Origin: Pseudomonas putida
GTDB taxonomy: Bacteria > Pseudomonadota > Gammaproteobacteria > Pseudomonadales > Pseudomonadaceae
Length of the DNA: 64,000 nt
NCBI GenBank assembly: GCA_041071465.1
Contig: CP163498.1
Location: 1,178,001-1,242,000 of the forward strand
Reading direction: 5' to 3'
Each line of letters opens with the position of its first letter. Position 1 is the first letter of the stretch. The notes below the pieces were generated by a model, which did not search any database, was not told where the DNA came from, and worked only from the letters and a program-made list of their open reading frames with translations. Both the position numbers and the translations under genes were made by a program. Shown here piece by piece: positions 53,707 to 64,000 of the stretch.

Positions 53707-55373
53707 TTACTTGACGATCATCCCCACCCCACGCCCACGCGGATCAGAAGCGGTCTCGAGCTTCGCCCCATCCACCCGGATCGCCTGGATATCGCCCATC
53801 TCCCAACCCTGGTCCTCCAGCACGTAACCCATCTTCTTCAGTTCATCAGCTACCGGCCCGGTCAGGGGCGCATAGCTGTCAAAGTAGATGGTGTCCTTGG
53901 GCAGCAACTGATGGTGCACCCGCTGCGCCGCCACCGCCTTGTCCAACGGCATGCCGTAGTCGTACAGGTTGTTCATCACCTGGAAGATCGAGGTGAAGAT
54001 CCGTGAACCACCCGGGGTACCGATCACCAGCTCGACCTTGCCATCGCGGGTCATCAGGCTAGGGCTCATCGATGAAAGCATGCGCTTGCCCGGTTCGATG
54101 GCGTTGGCATCACCGCCGACCACACCAAAGGCGTTAGCCGCACCCGGTTTGGCGCTGAAATCATCCATCTCGTCGTTCAGCAGGAAGCCCGCGCCCTTCA
54201 CCACCACGCCACTGCCGTAGTCGAGGTTGAGGGTGTAGGTATTGCTGACCGCATTGCCTTGCTTGTCGACGATCGAGAAATGCGTGGTCTGGTGCGGCTC
54301 CAGCCCTGGCTTGACCTTGTCGGTGTCGGAAATGGCCTTCGGGTTGACCTGCGCGGCGCGCTTGGCCAGGTAATCCTTGGCCACCAGCTGGTCCACCGGC
54401 ACCTTGGTAAAGGCCGGGTCGCCAAGGTAGTCGGCACGGTCGGCGAACACCCGCTTTTCGATCTCTGCCAACAGGTGGATGTACTGCGCCGAGTTGTGCG
54501 CCACCCCTTTGAGGTCCGCCGCGCGGTCTTCCTTGATGCCCAGCAACTGGGCCAGTGCCACGCCACCGGAGCTCGGCGGTGGGGCGGTGTACACCACATT
54601 GCCGCGCCAGCTTACGGCCATCGGCTCACGCCACACGGCCTTGTAGTCCTTCAAGTCTTCTTTGGTGATCAGGCCTTTGTCGGCCTGCATCTGCGCCACC
54701 AGCAGGTCGGCGGTCTTGCCCTGGTAGAACTCGCTCACGCCCTTGTCGGCGATGCGCTCCAGGGTCTGGGCCATTTCCGGCTGTTTGAACAGCTCGCCAA
54801 CCTTCATGTTGCCGAAGTAGTCGTTGAAGTTGGTCGCTGTCTTGAACATGCCCTGGGCATCGTTGCGGTACTGGTACTGTTTTTCCGCCACCTTGAAGCC
54901 GTTTTTCGCATAGCCGATGGCCGGGTCAGCAACTCGCTCCAGGGCAGCTTGCCGAACTTCTGGTGCGCCTCCCACAAGCCCATCACCGTACCGGGTACAC
55001 CAGCGGCGCGTACACCAACCAGGCTCAGGTTCTCGATGACCTCGCCCTTGTCGTCCAGGTACATGTTGCGCGTGGCGGCCTTGGGCGCGACTTCGCGGTA
55101 GTCGAGGAAGTAGGGCTTGCCGTCGATGAACAGGGTCATGAAGCCGCCACCACCGATGTTGCCGGCCTCGGGGTAGGTCACCGCCAGGGTGAAGGCGGTT
55201 GCCACTGCGGCGTCCACCGCGTTGCCGCCCTTTTTCAGAATGTCGGCGGCTACCTGTGCACCATATTGATCAGGTGCGGCCACCGCGCCGCCCTCCAGGT
55301 TGGCGGCGTAAACCGAGGAACAGCTCAGAATCGCGGCTGCGAGAGCCAGGTACTGGAACGGGACAATACGCAT
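53707..55373 (-). pseudogene. ggt: Gamma-glutamyltransferase, frameshifted
   Basis: A ~555-residue exported enzyme that cleaves glutathione. A signal peptide (MRIVPFQYLALAAAILSCSSVYA) is followed by the large subunit (GGNAVDAAVATAFTLAVTYPEAGNIGGGGFM). The autocatalytic threonine lies in HQTTHFSIVD and SMSPSLMTRDGK follows. The frame breaks at 54923-54925: WSELLT should continue PAIGYAKNGFKVAEKQY. One missing C in a run of four restores it. The GGT fold is otherwise complete. It likely acts in the periplasm on glutathione or gamma-glutamyl peptides. Confidence 0.9.
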
Positions 55374-55490
55374 GACACTTCCTTGGTGTTGTTTTTGTTG
55401 AGCAGTCAGTAAGGCCGAAGCGCTTCGACTGTGCAATCAACCGTAGGAAGTTTCGCCGCCTGTGGGCAGGATTTGTCGCGTTCAGGCAAC

Positions 55491-58374: not shown

Positions 58375-59256
58375 ATGCACTTTGACCTGATCGACCTCAA
58401 GCTGTTCCAGCACACCCTGGAGTGCGGCAACATCACCGCCGGCGCCAGCCGCAGCCATCTTTCACTGGCAGCGGCCAGTGCGCGCATCCGCGCCATGGAA
58501 GCCTCGCTGGGTATTCCTTTGCTTGAGCGTAACCGTCGTGGCGTACAACCGACGCCGGCCGGCCAGGCGTTGTTGCAGCATGCGCGGCTGATAACCCAGC
58601 AAGTCGAGCGCTTGCAGTTCGACCTAAGCCAGTATGCGCAGGGGCAGCAAGGCCAGGTGCGCCTGCTGTGCAACACCGCTGCGCTTACCGAGTACCTGCC
58701 CGAACTGCTGGCCAGCTTCCTGGCGGAAAACCCCGGTGTCAGCGTGGACGTGCAAGAGCTGCCGAGCTTGCGCATCGTGCAGTCGATTACCCAGGGCATC
58801 GCCGACCTGGGCATCGTTTCCACCGCTGCCCCCAGCGAGCATCTGCAAACCCGGCCGTTTCGCGACGACCCGCTGGTGCTGGTGACACCGCTGGGCCACC
58901 CGCTGGCCCATGCAGCCGCGCCCAGCTTCATCGAAAGCCTGAGCCATGGCTATGTCGGCCTTGGGGCTGGCAGTGCGTTGGCGCTGTACCTGGAAGAGCA
59001 GGCGCTACGCGAGGGGCGGCGCATGCGGATTCGGGTGCGGGCAGAAGGGTTTGACGGGGTGATTCGCATGGTGGCGGGCGGTGCAGGTGTCGGGGTGGTG
59101 CCGCTGGCAGCGGTGCAGCGCTGGCAAGGGATGTTGCCGTTGCATTGGGTAGCGCTTGAGGAACCATGGGCCAACCGCAAGTTGCTGGTATGCGCGCGGG
59201 ATTTTACTGCGCTACCGGGCTATGCCGCAGGGCTGGTCACCACACTCTGCGGCTGA
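58375..59256 (+). CDS. LysR-family transcriptional regulator
   Basis: A 293-residue LysR regulator. The helix-turn-helix is LKLFQHTLECGNITAGASRSHLSLAAASARIRAME and the effector domain is collinear with CysB/YgfI-like proteins. I chose the ATG at 58375 (MHFDLIDLK). It is divergent from the TauE/SafE transporter gene with 78 bases between, the usual LysR-transporter layout. Immediately after it lies a decayed cation transporter fragment. Confidence 0.86.
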   Translation: MHFDLIDLKLFQHTLECGNITAGASRSHLSLAAASARIRAMEASLGIPLLERNRRGVQPTPAGQALLQHARLITQQVERLQFDLSQYAQGQQGQVRLLCNTAALTEYLPELLASFLAENPGVSVDVQELPSLRIVQSITQGIADLGIVSTAAPSEHLQTRPFRDDPLVLVTPLGHPLAHAAAPSFIESLSHGYVGLGAGSALALYLEEQALREGRRMRIRVRAEGFDGVIRMVAGGAGVGVVPLAAVQRWQGMLPLHWVALEEPWANRKLLVCARDFTALPGYAAGLVTTLCG

Positions 59257-59268
59257 GGCAAGCAACAA

Positions 59269-59447
59269 GTGCAGGTAGTGCCGGCCAGCATCACCGACCT
59301 GCATTTATGGCGCGTGGGCAAAGACCGGTACGCCTGCGTTCTCGGCTGGCCAGCCAAGTCGCTCTCAGCGCCAACAGCGTGCGCAAGGCTCTGGGCGGGC
59401 ACGAAGAACTGGCGCACATCACCGTCGAGGTAAAACGCCTGGCATAG
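59269..59447 (+). pseudogene. Remnant of a cation diffusion facilitator C-terminus (CDF/DmeF-like)
   Basis: About 60 codons resembling the last segment of a CDF metal exporter. They contain VVPASITDLHLWRVGKDRYACVL in one frame and ALSANSVRKALGGHEELAHITVEVKRLA in another, ending at the stop at 59447. The DLHLWRVG and HEELAHITVEV motifs are diagnostic of the cytoplasmic tail of DmeF-type proteins. The membrane part is missing: the fragment starts 12 bases after the LysR stop. A single missing C near 59346 separates the two frames. This is gene decay from a deletion or replacement, not just a sequence slip. Confidence 0.7.
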
Positions 59448-59543
59448 CGCGGGCAGGCAGCTGGACGTCGAGCCCAGGCAACTGCGGCTCGGCCGATGGG
59501 CCTATGGTGACCCGTCATTCAGCCAGTCACCAGGAGTTGTGCC

Positions 59544-59756
59544 ATGTCCGATTTCATCACCGTCCTGCGCGAAACCTGCCCGACGCCGGTCGTGGACGCC
59601 ACCAAGTGGAAGCGCATCGGCGGCGATCCGCACACCGTCAACCTCAATGCCTACCTGTCTGCCGACGGCAGCAAGATCATGGGCACCTGGATCTGCACCC
59701 CAGGCAAGTTCGAGGTCAACTACGAGAAGTGGGAGTTCTGCCACTTCCTCGCTTAG
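59544..59756 (+). pseudogene. Cupin-domain protein, truncated by island insertion
   Basis: The first ~69 codons of a small cupin (~115 residues expected): MSDFITVLRETCPTPVVDATKWKR, then DGSKIMGTWICTPGKFEVNYEKWEFCHFL. The cupin motif should continue with a glycine-rich HFLEGxC-type segment. Instead the frame reads one alanine codon and stops at 59754-59756, exactly where base composition falls. The start at 59544 has CAGGAG upstream. The missing 3' half is not in the window, which is what insertion of a mobile element into this gene would give. Confidence 0.75.
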
Positions 59757-59886
59757 TGAAACCAAAAATATCCCAAAACCAACAAAAATACGTTATCGAC
59801 TTGTTTTTCTTGATTTTTTTTTGGGAATAATTTTAGGATACCCCAGCATCCAGTTCCTAAATCGAAGCCACCGATAAGGCCCTTTG
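59757..59886. other. Island edge: AT-rich non-coding segment with inverted repeat
   Basis: 130 bases between the cut cupin gene and the first island gene, strongly A/T-rich, in contrast with the GC-rich chromosome. AAAAATATCCCAAAA (59764-59778) and TTTTGGGAATAATTTT (59819-59834) form an imperfect inverted repeat. AACCAAAAATA recurs in direct orientation as AACCAACAAAAATA. This could hold the recombinase recognition site or a terminator for the minus-strand island genes. I cannot separate the two. Confidence 0.5.
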
Positions 59887-60519
59887 CTAACCTCCCCTCT
59901 CCAAGGTCAACACTTTCTCAATCGCATCTCTGAATCCCGGTTTTTGAATGATACGGCCCTTGGAGTCCGAGACCTCGCCACGAGGCCCGATTGTCTGTCC
60001 CATCTGACGCAGATTATCCTCATCGATTGCAAACCTCAGCGCCGATAATTCAACCTCCCTCAGCCGAAAGTATGTTTCAGGTGTTTTCCCTTCAACCGCA
60101 CCTAAAAAAATGGGCGTCATGCCACTAGAAAGCTGTCGACGCATCTTTGATTTTAACGCCTTCAACTCCTTTACCAGCAAAGAAACATTTAACTTCAGCA
60201 CCGGATCTTCGATACTCGAGACCCAAGATAATGCATCAGAGAATTGATGCGTTGGAGCTGGCATCGATGCTTGTTTCCAAGCATGGATTAGCAATCTGTA
60301 ATGTTCCCCTGTAGGATTCACAATCGACTTTTCACTGGGTACTGCCAAGCCGCGAGCTTGTCCCATAGCCAGCAGAGCTCTGTATGAGAAGTCCTTTACC
60401 TCAAGGCTCGCAGCAATCTTACAAGCTTCGTTGATCGCCTCCAGACTTCGACGGCGTCGAGAGTCACTTGCTTCGGATGTCAACCTTTCAAATACCACTT
60501 CTGGAAGCTCACTCATCAT
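59887..60519 (-). CDS. Small protein of the recombinase operon (GmtX-like)
   Basis: A 210-residue, mainly helical soluble protein; no catalytic motif recognised. It begins MMSELPEVVFERLTSEASDSRRRRSLEAINEACK and ends with GRIIQKPGFRDAIEKVLTLERGG. Codon use is A/T-rich like the recombinase. Its start codon lies inside the last codons of the recombinase gene (11-base overlap), with GGAG upstream, so the two are co-translated. A large recombinase followed by a small uncharacterised gene at one edge of an island matches the Gamma-Mobile-Trio layout, where the small partner is GmtX. It could instead be a DNA-binding accessory factor like TnpC of Tn554. Confidence 0.6.
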   Translation of the reverse strand: MMSELPEVVFERLTSEASDSRRRRSLEAINEACKIAASLEVKDFSYRALLAMGQARGLAVPSEKSIVNPTGEHYRLLIHAWKQASMPAPTHQFSDALSWVSSIEDPVLKLNVSLLVKELKALKSKMRRQLSSGMTPIFLGAVEGKTPETYFRLREVELSALRFAIDEDNLRQMGQTIGPRGEVSDSKGRIIQKPGFRDAIEKVLTLERGG

Positions 60520-63500
60520 TCTCGTCTCCATGCGCACCAGAGGTAAGCGATACGTAATTCGAAAAAATCGCCTTGATTTCGGATGTTATGGGAGTCAAAC
60601 CGGCTTGATATTCATCAACATCCAATATCATTAACTTCCCTGAGATCAAATTATCGATTCTTTCCCAGGAATGCAGACGACTCATCAGCAACGAATTTAA
60701 CTGATTGCATGCAGCAAGCTTTTGCGCATTTGTAAGCTTATACATTGCTGGCCGCAACCCGTTATTAGCTGCCATCCTGTCGATCATTTCTGAAATCAAT
60801 GGCAAGGCACGAGATGGGTTCGCAGATCTGTAAATAGTTGCATTTTGACAGATTTCAGACAGCAGATGGTAGGTCGACTCTGAGGCCCTGAAGCTCATCT
60901 CCTTCAGGTCTTCCGAAACAACTAACTTAAGCTCTGCCTCACTATTTTCTGACTCAGTGTGATCGATTGCTTTTACGCAATCCATTACGTAGCGATTGAC
61001 AGCCCCATAGTCACGTAACAACACTTCGAGTTTTGCTGCACTTTGTTGCTGTTGAGCGACTGAACGTTTACGGTCCAGCTCCCGATCAAATGGTAGATCT
61101 TTGATGCTCGCATCGTACCAGGCGCTTTCCAACTCATCCAGTTCAGCTGTATAAGCTTGATATCTACCGCTTTCATCATGAATTTCAAGAGCTATCTCAT
61201 TCGCCAATGAAACCAATCCTCCTAAGAATGCTATCCCTGAAACAAAGAAACGACAACGAGGACAATTTTTCTGCCCTAGATACCCAGCTTCAACCGCGGC
61301 ATATACATTCTCAATGAGATCACCACCTATATTGCAGGCGGCAGCCGACATCGGGCATATTCCCCAATCAAAAATTACGTTTGCAGATTTTGTCGATGAC
61401 TTCTCGAAAAAAATCCTATTTCCGTCAGTTGCAATCAAATTCCTAGCTTGCGATTGCAAGCCATTGGCAAGCACGTCTCGCACCAAATTATCACAGGCGG
61501 TATATTCAGCACGCTTCTCGGCCTCTTGCATAGGCCTCCGCATTTGGTGTTCCTTAAGACTCACATAGTGAATGGTCATGACGAGCGCTGCATGCCCAAC
61601 CAGCTTCGACACTATATGTATCGGCGCATCCCCGTCCGCTATATAGGCGGTGATGAGACTTACCCTCAAGCAGTGAGGAGTGTAGTCACTAAGATAACGA
61701 GGTCCGTACTGACTGTTTTTCCTGGCTAGATCTTCCCCACCCCGTTGAATGAGATAAAGTAGCTTAGGCAATGTGGTCTGGAAGGCCGTTGCCGTAGTAA
61801 TAGGCTGACCCGTTTTATCTTGTCGAAAAAGAAAGCATTGGCTACCCCGAGATTTCAAAATCTCACTATTGATCTCTGCGTGTGTTTTTATCGAAGTCCA
61901 TGGTGTGGGGTAATCAAGCGGTGAGTATTTTTCCTGCCAGTCCCTCAACACCAACAACCAATACGCCAAATCCTCTGGAATCCATTCGACTTCGTATCCT
62001 TGATCACGAGCACCAGTTTTATTAGTTGTGCAATAGAACTTTGGATATCCATTTTTCCCTTTTTGAACTGCCGCCTGAGGTGTACTGCTCCTGGTGCCAC
62101 GCAAAGCAAGATGCCCAGTATTCTTCCTCCACTCAATTGTACCAGTTTCCATGTCAACAACTCCGACCTCTCGGTCAGCCTCTCCGCTATCCAGCCACAG
62201 AATCTGTTGCCCCCGTAATGGAAACCTTAGCAAGGTATAAAGCGCTACAAACCGAACCGGAGACCATACCTGATACACAACTACTCTGCGCCGTTTCCCA
62301 GCAACAACCCGCTCAATTCGCTCAAGCTTTCGCCATACCGTATGAGGATCATCGACATCAATTTTCGATAATGGGACATCAAGCCAGTCTCCGCGGCTAT
62401 CGAAGAACTCTTGGAGATGCTCTAACTGGCTTAGGGACACGCGTCGTGATAGAGACATCTCATAATCAGGAACGAGGTAGTTTCTAGCTCTCAAAATATA
62501 CTCGTAACCAAGCGAGGGTTTATTCGTCTGACCTAGTTTAGAATAGCCTAACCCTTTGGCGAATCCGGCGAGGATGCTAGAAAACGGATTTCTGAAGTCG
62601 TTTAGCACGACGCTCTCATCCCCATCGACATCTGTACATTCTTCGTCGAGAACCCACTGAAAAAATGTCGAAATTGACGTGTGTACCTGCTGCTTCAGGG
62701 ACTCTGCCTGAGACTCAATCAATGATATATACAGCGCAGCATTAAACTTATTAGCCCTTAATAATAAAAATTTTGGATCATCAGGTAAATTTAATTCGTG
62801 AAAGTATCCGTTTATCAGCACCCTCAACGCCATGCGACGTATTGCATAATTTGTTTGAAACCTCAAATGTTTCTCATATACATCACACAAGCATGGGTAG
62901 CTATCTGAATAATCAGGAGCTATTTCCAGCGAAAGAAAGTCTTGTATACTGATCCAGCCTTTGTGCTTGAAGGCTCGATAGGGAGCACTCGGCAGCCTAG
63001 GATCCTGCTTATATCCGTCTCTATACTCGGCATATGACTTAAAACCAAATTTTTCGGCAGCTTTTTTTGCTTCTTCATATGTTTTGTAATTCCTGTCGCG
63101 CTCAACCCCAAGGAAATTTGGCCATCCTGACCATGGAAGAAAGTGACTCTTAGGGTCGCACGGCAGACGAGGATCCAGTTTATATTTAGCTCTATAGTCA
63201 GACGCACTTATAATCCCCAACCGCTGAGCAGCGGCGCTAGCCTCGGCCAAATCACTATAAAAAAGCGGTTTAAAGAAACGAAACAAAAACTTCCAACTGA
63301 CCCAGCCTTTAGAAGCGTACTCCGACCAAGGCGCACAGGGTAATTTTTCGTCTTCCTTACGCCTAACCAAATACTCATCTTTACTCGTAATGCCCAATTT
63401 ATGCACCGCCTGCTCCATCTCTGAATAGGTGGGATAAAATTTAGATTTCTGCCTATCAAAAAAATCATACCAATTAGTCCAGCCGCGGCCAGAATAAGCC

Positions 63501-64000
63501 TTTTCAGGGCTAGATGGGAGCCTGGGATCTTCGTAGTATCTTTTCCGATAATCCGGAACACTCACAATCCCCAGCTTTTTTGTCGCTTGCTTAGCCTCTT
63601 CATAGCTCGCGTATATAGCAACCAGCTCATCTGAAAGGAACGGCCCCCACCCTTTCCAACCTGTTTTCGCGTAGACTTCATTTGGATTACTCCTCAGTTT
63701 TTTATCGGCTAAGTAACGGTTTTTATATTCTTTCGCGGTGTGTACACCTAGCCTTCTCGCTGCGCTTTTTGCTTCTTCATAGGTTGGATAAGCTTTCTCA
63801 TAATCCTCTTGGAAGAAATGCCTCCAAGATTTGCATTCATCGTAAAACCGTACGGGATCGGAAGGCAGACGTGAGTCTTCCTTATAACGAGCCACGTATT
63901 CTAGCTGAGTTGAAATACCTAGAAACCTTGCTGCAATCTGTGCTTGCGACAACGATTCGTATAAGTCTGGCTTTGCCTTGCTCAGAAACACATACCAACA
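60509..64000 (-). CDS. Giant tyrosine recombinase with N-terminal integrase repeats (GmtZ-like), 5' partial
   Basis: At least 1163 residues; the frame is open through the window edge, so the N-terminus lies outside. Numbering from the GTG at 63991: six tandem ~52-residue repeats occupy residues 10-353, a helical core-binding region spans ~360-560, and the tyrosine recombinase domain ~575-815. Catalytic residues are Arg593 (PLRGQQIL), Lys658 region (TTNKTGAR), His773-Arg776 (TPHCLR), His800 (KLVGHAAL) and nucleophile Tyr809 (TIHYV). A ~350-residue tail follows, with cysteines 879, 886, 910 and 913 (last pair in CPRC) that could bind zinc. It probably integrates and excises the island. The repeats match phage-integrase repeat units (PF14882). 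Confidence 0.85.
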   Translation of the reverse strand, partial: CWYVFLSKAKPDLYESLSQAQIAARFLGISTQLEYVARYKEDSRLPSDPVRFYDECKSWRHFFQEDYEKAYPTYEEAKSAARRLGVHTAKEYKNRYLADKKLRSNPNEVYAKTGWKGWGPFLSDELVAIYASYEEAKQATKKLGIVSVPDYRKRYYEDPRLPSSPEKAYSGRGWTNWYDFFDRQKSKFYPTYSEMEQAVHKLGITSKDEYLVRRKEDEKLPCAPWSEYASKGWVSWKFLFRFFKPLFYSDLAEASAAAQRLGIISASDYRAKYKLDPRLPCDPKSHFLPWSGWPNFLGVERDRNYKTYEEAKKAAEKFGFKSYAEYRDGYKQDPRLPSAPYRAFKHKGWISIQDFLSLEIAPDYSDSYPCLCDVYEKHLRFQTNYAIRRMALRVLINGYFHELNLPDDPKFLLLRANKFNAALYISLIESQAESLKQQVHTSISTFFQWVLDEECTDVDGDESVVLNDFRNPFSSILAGFAKGLGYSKLGQTNKPSLGYEYILRARNYLVPDYEMSLSRRVSLSQLEHLQEFFDSRGDWLDVPLSKIDVDDPHTVWRKLERIERVVAGKRRRVVVYQVWSPVRFVALYTLLRFPLRGQQILWLDSGEADREVGVVDMETGTIEWRKNTGHLALRGTRSSTPQAAVQKGKNGYPKFYCTTNKTGARDQGYEVEWIPEDLAYWLLVLRDWQEKYSPLDYPTPWTSIKTHAEINSEILKSRGSQCFLFRQDKTGQPITTATAFQTTLPKLLYLIQRGGEDLARKNSQYGPRYLSDYTPHCLRVSLITAYIADGDAPIHIVSKLVGHAALVMTIHYVSLKEHQMRRPMQEAEKRAEYTACDNLVRDVLANGLQSQARNLIATDGNRIFFEKSSTKSANVIFDWGICPMSAAACNIGGDLIENVYAAVEAGYLGQKNCPRCRFFVSGIAFLGGLVSLANEIALEIHDESGRYQAYTAELDELESAWYDASIKDLPFDRELDRKRSVAQQQQSAAKLEVLLRDYGAVNRYVMDCVKAIDHTESENSEAELKLVVSEDLKEMSFRASESTYHLLSEICQNATIYRSANPSRALPLISEMIDRMAANNGLRPAMYKLTNAQKLAACNQLNSLLMSRLHSWERIDNLISGKLMILDVDEYQAGLTPITSEIKAIFSNYVSLTSGAHGDENDE
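62933..63964 (-). repeat. Six tandem ~58-residue integrase repeats within the recombinase gene
   Basis: Repeat starts are at residues 10, 68, 127, 186, 244 and 302 of the visible protein, a period of 58-59 residues (~175 bp). The shared pattern is aromatic-x-x-(Y/L)xEAxxAAxxLGI, then (E/D)Y...RY..D.(R/K)LP..P...Y...GW..W..FL. The residues just before residue 1 (WYVFL) look like the end of another copy beyond the window. The repeats have diverged at DNA level, so they are ancient rather than recent duplications. Confidence 0.85.

Follow-up and report, generated by a model that had tools for sequence, protein, structure and literature searches.

Gamma-Mobile-Trio (GMT) islands were reportedly described by Mahata et al. 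in 2024 (doi 10.1038/s41564-024-01840-5). Their hallmark genes gmtY, gmtZ and gmtX stand side by side, an arrangement that is also seen in relatives. In the accessible text of one paper, their cargo is described as rich in defence and antibacterial genes (PMC12039261). Several other systems come close, and are given here from the accessible parts of the corresponding papers. Site-specific islands commonly restore their target by providing one of its ends, as established for islands in tRNA genes (PMC4383910). Tn552-II, a Tn554-like tnpABC element, uses a short att within a gene as its insertion site and brings the donor att and a homologue of the target gene named tgl (target-gene-like), which may have a role in rescue according to Wan et al. 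(2025, PMC12486829). GInts encode several tyrosine recombinases, have short imperfect border repeats, a circular form and core heteroduplexes, and insert in protein genes (PMC5385486). SE elements, which are gammaproteobacterial and common in Vibrio and Pseudomonas, combine two tyrosine recombinases with accessory proteins and recombine at a short spacer.

We analyzed a window of 64,000 nucleotides of Pseudomonas putida (GCA_041071465.1, CP163498.1, positions 1,178,001-1,242,000; hereafter genome G000, contig C1), the end of which is the left edge of an integrated mobile island. This island resembles GMT islands by its GmtX and GmtY, both above the cut-offs of their family models, its GmtZ-like giant recombinase, its cargo and its site-specific borders. 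It differs from them by the distance of gmtY from gmtZ-gmtX (62.8 kb), by a cargo that is, in the part scanned, devoted mainly to metal resistance, and in that it breaks its target gene and brings a complete second version of it. In the accessible part of the literature, a precedent for such a copy is the tgl of Tn552-II, and the G000 island likewise brings a homologue of its broken target. However, Tn552-II is described there as one 9-kb Staphylococcus transposon with tnpABC, whereas the islands considered here measure 22-69 kb, use GMT-type recombinases and hit three unrelated targets. The several tyrosine recombinases, short border repeats and protein-gene target are shared with GInts; the latter differ by their ginABCD set and by insertion at gene ends with an outward promoter, and the accessible text describes no complete spare gene (PMC5385486). 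SE elements differ by having intA-tfp-intB-srap together at one end, GMT and SE elements being set apart here by their accessible descriptions and not by sequence. Our literature search, which covered listed papers and accessible passages of articles citing the original GMT description, came across no mention of spare target copies in GMT islands.

Borders and gene content of the island

The base composition drops at about position 59751 of the window, with a GC of 0.63 over 59250-59749 and of 0.45 over 59750-60249. The last host base before the island is 59751, inside a chromosomal cupin gene whose frame (59544-59756, forward strand, 70 aa) crosses the border: residues 1-69 of a 114-residue protein are of host origin, followed by one residue and a stop. 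The missing 3' part of this gene, which a sequence-only reading of the window had proposed to look for past position 64000, is present at the far junction (C1:1306510-1306653, residues 67-114), outside the window. In alignments with the island-free genome G289 of the same species, the left host flank matches up to and including the CTTCCTCG of 59744-59751, and on the other side the right flank restarts with the identical 8 bases at C1:1306512-1306519. These 8 bases are common to both junctions and to the empty site. Given the empty site in G289 and the 8-bp core at both ends, the integration is site-specific with defined borders, and the island edge placed near 59751 by the sequence-only reading is confirmed by these borders, the empty site and the 3' half of the cupin gene at the far junction. 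Between the two copies of the core, the island is 68,768 bp long (G000:C1:1237752-1306519), and its first 4.25 kb (59752-64000) lie within the window.

Both genes announced at this edge were found, on the reverse strand: gmtX (59887-60537) and a gmtZ-related giant tyrosine recombinase gene with N-terminal integrase repeats (60509-64000 in the window). The frame of the latter extends past the window to C1:1242192 (window-equivalent 64192), corresponding to 1227 aa from the first start codon, and its overlap with gmtX is 29 bp or less, according to where translation really starts. Next beyond gmtZ and divergent from it is a complete cupin gene (C1:1242436-1242780, forward strand, outside the window), absent from the earlier account, whose start is 244 bp past the first gmtZ start codon. 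A second tyrosine recombinase had been expected beyond position 64000, just upstream of gmtZ. GmtY was indeed found beyond it, but its gene (C1:1305038-1306420, reverse strand, outside the window) is located at the other end of the island, about 90 bp from the border. The trio is therefore split, gmtZ and gmtX being adjacent and gmtY being separated from them by cargo dedicated mainly to metal resistance. Defence or toxin genes had been predicted in this cargo: one AbiEi-like gene adjoins gmtY, and in the part of the cargo that was scanned, 7 out of 10 proteins belong to metal- or arsenic-related families and the remaining 3 have no family.

An HMM search assigned GmtX to NF040692 (173.6 bits for a cut-off of 40) and GmtY to NF040693 (492.3 bits for a cut-off of 340). 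GmtZ aligns with NF047926 over 21-782 of 784 positions (E 1.7e-160), but its score of 535.6 bits is below the cut-off of 600. This cut-off is narrow, because a relative located between annotated gmtY and gmtX on plasmid NZ_CP084414 likewise goes without the GmtZ name. The proposed GMT identity thus stands at the level of protein families, GmtZ covering nearly all of its model at a score under the cut-off, and the layout of the trio is different from that predicted. As the side-by-side order of gmtY, gmtZ and gmtX is not found in G000, gmtY being so distant from the two other genes, we call this element a split-form GMT-kind island and not a standard member. Both tyrosine recombinases display motifs that we take to be recombinase motifs. 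The predicted fold of GmtX (mean pLDDT 83.2, pTM 0.44) has no PDB match at E <= 0.001, and for this reason no function was assigned to it; a PDB search with the GmtZ sequence gave a single match (E 0.054), which was not used.

Second copies of interrupted genes

From the 23 GMT islands examined in Pseudomonas, 16 carry a second copy of the gene that they interrupt, i.e. cupin (3 islands), greB (9 islands) or an endonuclease gene (4 islands, one copy being broken), cases sharing one target gene being related and not independent. In the 7 other islands, no spare copy was found, and the idea that every GMT island has one was therefore rejected. In nine genomes, the break in the host greB falls near codon 47-53, and the GMT genes are accompanied by a complete greB. 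The endonuclease gene is cut in G307 and G243; G004 has its N-half and a copy, and G299 has both halves and a copy that is itself interrupted. Outside the genus, one greB case was found (G512), and 4 out of 5 GMT regions have no spare copy. A strict scan had returned 9 regions, missing G000 and G307, and its thresholds were then relaxed. The relaxed scan detected the pattern around GMT genes in 11 of 19 GMT regions and in none of 4 control 100-kb stretches, together with six matches of no interest.

The island-borne greB copies display dN/dS values of 0.020-0.080 (four usable pairs), which show purifying selection. Moreover, these copies track gmtY rather than host greB, their identities being correlated with those of GmtY (Mantel r 0.49, p 0.0007) and not with those of host greB (r 0.09, p 0.25). 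GmtY is correlated with host greB as well (r 0.37, p 0.015), and the co-travel of island greB and gmtY is not strict, some greB copies being 94-98% alike where GmtY proteins are 52-66% alike. Between the island cupin genes of G000 and G399, there are 9 synonymous changes and 1 non-synonymous change. The island cupin gene has CTTCCAAG in place of the CTTCCTCG of P. putida-type hosts. The idea that the islands generally protect their spare copies by a recoded core was not retained, as other Pseudomonas cupin genes are near-identical to that of the island at this place and the greB copies are target-like.

Mode of insertion and rival explanations

What we observed comprises the island borders, the empty site in a relative, the split cupin gene, its spare copy and the recurrence of such copies, with constraint on those of greB, and we consider it fairly probable that the locus is a split-form GMT-kind island with a self-rescuing site-specific insertion in cupin. 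Its tyrosine recombinases, presumably active in catalysis, would insert the element at one short core inside the host gene, probably through a circular intermediate and with strands exchanged inside a stretch of about 8 bp, in the manner of Tn554, GInt and SE elements. The insertion destroys the host cupin, and the complete, diverged cupin of the island, if expressed, would replace the function of the broken gene, so that the recipient cell keeps a cupin. The same design is found in the GMT islands that break greB or the endonuclease gene. Entry by homologous recombination between the island cupin and the host cupin would also account for a target homologue aboard the island. It is highly improbable and was ruled out by the junction sequences, as the cupin of the island is intact and lies in its interior, only 8 bp are common to the junctions, and neither flank contains island-cupin sequence; in addition, the two cupins are 67-73% identical in protein.

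The spare copies might also be ordinary cargo, retained for a use of their own or as accessory alleles and unrelated to the broken target. Islands hold many genes, 7 of the 23 examined in the genus have no copy, and the same cupin adjoins metal-resistance genes and a gmtZ fragment on plasmids, without any sign of a broken cupin in the plasmid stretches seen around it. This explanation is nevertheless unlikely: an island homologue of a control host gene was found in 18 of 3270 gene-island pairs (0.55%), a number that falls to 5 of 3270 when at least 45% identity is required, whereas three unrelated targets each come with a copy, in 16 out of the 16 islands having those targets. The split trio itself could be debris, the GMT recombinase genes having been parted by a later insertion or recombination that left the element immobile. 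We find this rather unlikely, although gmtY adjoins gmtZ in all 20 other Pseudomonas genomes examined, P. monteilii has the start of gmtZ alone, at a contig end, with no gmtY found, and SE elements need an intact intA-tfp-intB operon according to the accessible part of PMC10214605. Indeed, all three trio genes are full-length open frames matching family models, and one Serratia plasmid also has a distant split trio. Moreover, P. sichuanensis WCHPs060039 and P. entomophila 6C6 carry the same element, inserted at the same place in cupin, with island cupins 99-100% identical and gmtY beyond the cargo in each; the split element thus interrupts cupin in three strains of different species, with differing core states and cargo. 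This recurrence argues for movement in the split form, descent with later change being the alternative.

Meaning for GMT islands

From the split trio, it seems that the recombinase genes do not have to be neighbours. Here, whole diverged replacements accompany mid-gene insertions in three unrelated genes, with purifying selection on the greB copies. Such spare copies would explain how large islands land harmlessly in conserved genes. They also provide a rule for locating island ends and targets, namely to look for a split gene with an intact homologue within the island, and make element addiction testable. It is possible, and we propose it tentatively, that GMT islands are self-rescuing, addictive insertions in at least three unrelated genes. 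If true, a lineage of islands would settle on a conserved host gene, break it and bring a foreign functional replacement; gaining the island would then be free of cost, and losing it by deletion would cost that function. GMT islands would thus be nature's equivalent of cleave-and-rescue gene drives, tied to metal-resistance and defence cargo.

Borders and genes of the Pseudomonas putida island

The window belongs to a single contig of 6.32 Mb (C1; contig positions carry this prefix, window positions do not). As a reference for the flanks, we used a genome of the same species in which the GmtZ search gave no match (G289). GC content falls from 0.63 to 0.45 at position 59750, and in the interrupted cupin frame (59544-59756) 69 of 114 residues are those of the host. 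The left-flank alignment ends with the 8-base core CTTCCTCG (59744-59751). On the right, host sequence aligned with the same reference opens with the same CTTCCTCG at C1:1306512-1306519. The island is 68,768 bp long, one core copy counted.

Genes matching the three family models of the Gamma-Mobile-Trio (GMT) were found in this island. The minus-strand gene gmtX (59887-60537) passes its model (NF040692; 173.6 bits for a cut-off of 40). The giant recombinase, which starts at C1:1242192, 192 bases beyond the window, is 1227 aa long when read from the first start codon; it matches positions 21-782 of the 784 of the GmtZ model NF047926 (E 1.7e-160), with a score of 535.6 bits that is below the cut-off of 600. 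It contains Integrase_2 and INT_rpt domains and an HxxR...GH...HY pattern, read here, like the other recombinase motifs, from what is generally known of tyrosine recombinases. The gmtY gene (C1:1305038-1306420, minus strand; NF040693, 492.3 bits for a cut-off of 340, passed) lies about 90 bp inward from the right island end, and its product displays RLSEA, HGHR, HH and Y motifs.

A complete cupin gene is located on the plus strand at C1:1242436-1242780, divergent from gmtZ, and shares 67% identity with the 5' part of the host cupin and 73% with its 3' part. Among ten cargo proteins scanned, seven matched a family (a CDF exporter, a heavy-metal response regulator, two heavy-metal P-type ATPases, a CusA/CzcA pump, and ArsJ with its GAPDH) and three matched none at E 1e-10. 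Of seven proteins tested against a defence library, only the AbiEi/DUF6088 protein encoded next to gmtY (C1:1304133-1304813) was matched. A DUF6088 and AbiEii pair is also found a few kb from gmtY on plasmid NZ_CP084414. Elsewhere in the window, two overlapping minus-strand frames (53707-54975 and 54804-55436) look like one frameshifted gene, presumably encoding a gamma-glutamyltransferase.

Split and adjacent trios

At an E limit of 1e-20, GmtZ matches were obtained in 30 of the 398 genomes of the genus sample, P. putida included; eight lower-scoring ones (G276, G082, G197, G204, G005, G309, G089 and G055) were left out. The gmtY gene was found in 23 of the 26 genomes searched, and not in G289, G227 and G400. 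G400 is the genome of P. monteilii NBRC 103158; its cupin matches coincide in position with those of G227, which belongs to the sampled genus, and this identifies the genus as Pseudomonas. Three of the 23 genomes have the split element, with gmtY apart from gmtZ-gmtX: it is on one contig in P. putida and G399, and across two contigs in G398. G398 and G399 also possess a second, different gmtY elsewhere. In the other 20 genomes, gmtY adjoins gmtZ, with a gap of at most about 1.3 kb between the matched parts, except in G235, which has a short gmtZ frame and a gap of 2.6 kb. The gmtZ gene of G270 and G280 is spread over more than one contig, with its start next to gmtY. For plasmids, coordinates were compared only where both searches listed the same record, and the two genes are adjacent in most of the pairs listed. 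On the Serratia marcescens plasmid NZ_CP053379 (2978-22327), gmtY is separated from a GmtZ relative (26% identity) and gmtX by genes for a two-partner secretion transporter, a very large hemagglutinin-repeat protein and a glycosyltransferase. This is a second, distant split trio.

The same element occupies the same cupin position in P. sichuanensis WCHPs060039 (GmtZ 100% identical) and P. entomophila 6C6 (96%). The P. putida island and that of G399 (about 40 kb) are alike (94-97% identity) over three stretches: the leftmost 15 kb or so, the rightmost 4 kb and, in the interior, a block of 11.5 kb. The remaining cargo gave no match at the limits of that search. In G398, the cores differ (left CTTCCGTC, right CTTCCTCG), which fits the model described for Tn552-II and Tn554 (PMC12486829), where the att site is brought in by the element.

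Four plasmids also carry the cupin gene, together with a gmtZ fragment that stops after residue 168-180. In all three of those viewed (Pseudomonas; L128, L129 and L130), metal-resistance genes lie beyond the cupin; an IS3 transposase is found at the gmtZ break in L128 and L130, and none is annotated in L129. In P. monteilii NBRC 103158, a contig end (L118) carries the island cupin with gmtZ residues 1-161, the host cupin is intact and a search for gmtY found none. This piece is perhaps a remnant like the plasmid ones.

Spare copies of the interrupted genes

In the island flanks read in G190 and G272, a greB gene directly follows gmtX. We searched 21 whole genomes with this GreB protein, and nine (G190, G272, G342, G065, G259, G031, G146, G239 and G274) possess both a greB cut near codon 47-53 and a complete greB accompanying GMT genes; the two parts in G342 and G146 lie on different contigs, where the island extent is not visible. 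When G190 and G272 are compared with G239 and G274, the spare greB directly follows gmtX in some islands and is tens of kb from the trio in others, and host DNA borders gmtX in some and gmtY in others. Thus, the place of the trio in the island varies.

We then scanned GMT regions for a complete reading frame accompanied by two fragments, apart from each other on the same strand, that each match one of its parts. Under strict limits, this pattern was present in 9 of 19 regions, P. putida and G307 being missed; with relaxed limits, it was present in 11 of 19 regions vs. none of four control stretches of 100 kb. Six other hits obtained with the relaxed limits were of no interest (two each in G307 and G243, one each in G274 and G065, the last being the antisense of the same greB). 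It was the scan that first revealed a cut endonuclease gene (PF01223) in G307 and G243. Using tblastn, we added G004 (copy and N-part; C-part absent from the 40 kb covered) and G299 (both parts; copy in two pieces). This one gene is cut at two sites, near residue 140 in G243, G004 and G299 and near 175 in G307. In G299 (C1:105600-153697), the copy pieces are about 1.6 kb apart, and a second GmtZ-like frame is also present.

In total, 16 of the 23 islands of the genus have a spare copy (3 cupin, 9 greB, 4 endonuclease). Outside the genus, a cut greB with a copy was found in one of five regions (G512), and stretches of 27 and 28 kb from two plasmids did not display the pattern. Among the islands without a spare copy, G288, G270 and G280 have near the gmtY end an N-terminal 40-residue piece of one gene, which we take to be radical-SAM-like from its CxxxCxxC motif; the piece has no other match in each genome, a search liable to overlook copies whose start differs greatly. 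In G353 and G235, a truncated gene near the gmtY end has no second match in the genome. In G363, the gmtY end follows a complete gene, presumably sspB, and G228 shows no pattern within 100 kb; these two islands, which may break no gene, are counted as lacking a copy.

Chance, selection and proposed self-rescue

As a background, 327 control host genes were compared with ten islands. A homologue at 70% coverage or more was found in 18 of the 3270 gene-island pairs, and in 5 when at least 45% identity was also required. By our estimate, in which lineages are not formally separated, copies for three of about seven target choices are far above this background. The island greB copies are under constraint: four pairs gave dN/dS values of 0.080, 0.042, 0.024 and 0.020, one of them at a dS of 1.7, near saturation (three further pairs were saturated). 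The island cupins of P. putida and G399 differ by 9 synonymous and 1 non-synonymous changes, and the endonuclease copies of G243 and G004 by 12 and 4, respectively. Identities between island greB copies track those of GmtY (Mantel r 0.49, P = 0.0007), whereas they do not track host greB (r 0.09, P = 0.25). GmtY is likewise correlated with host greB (r 0.37, P = 0.015). Certain greB copies are 94-98% alike despite GmtY proteins only 52-66% alike, so that copies may also pass between islands.

The safest statement is that the P. putida element is a GMT-kind island in split-trio form, integrated site-specifically and with an intact homologue of the broken gene aboard. Spare copies of broken genes recur in other GMT islands. 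A target-like gene acting as rescue was proposed in 2025 for Tn552-II (PMC12486829); our literature search, which did not extend to the original GMT paper, found no such statement for GMT islands. We favour self-rescue as the mechanism: the island copy would be expressed and would complement the broken gene, and the element would thereby benefit from its spare copy.
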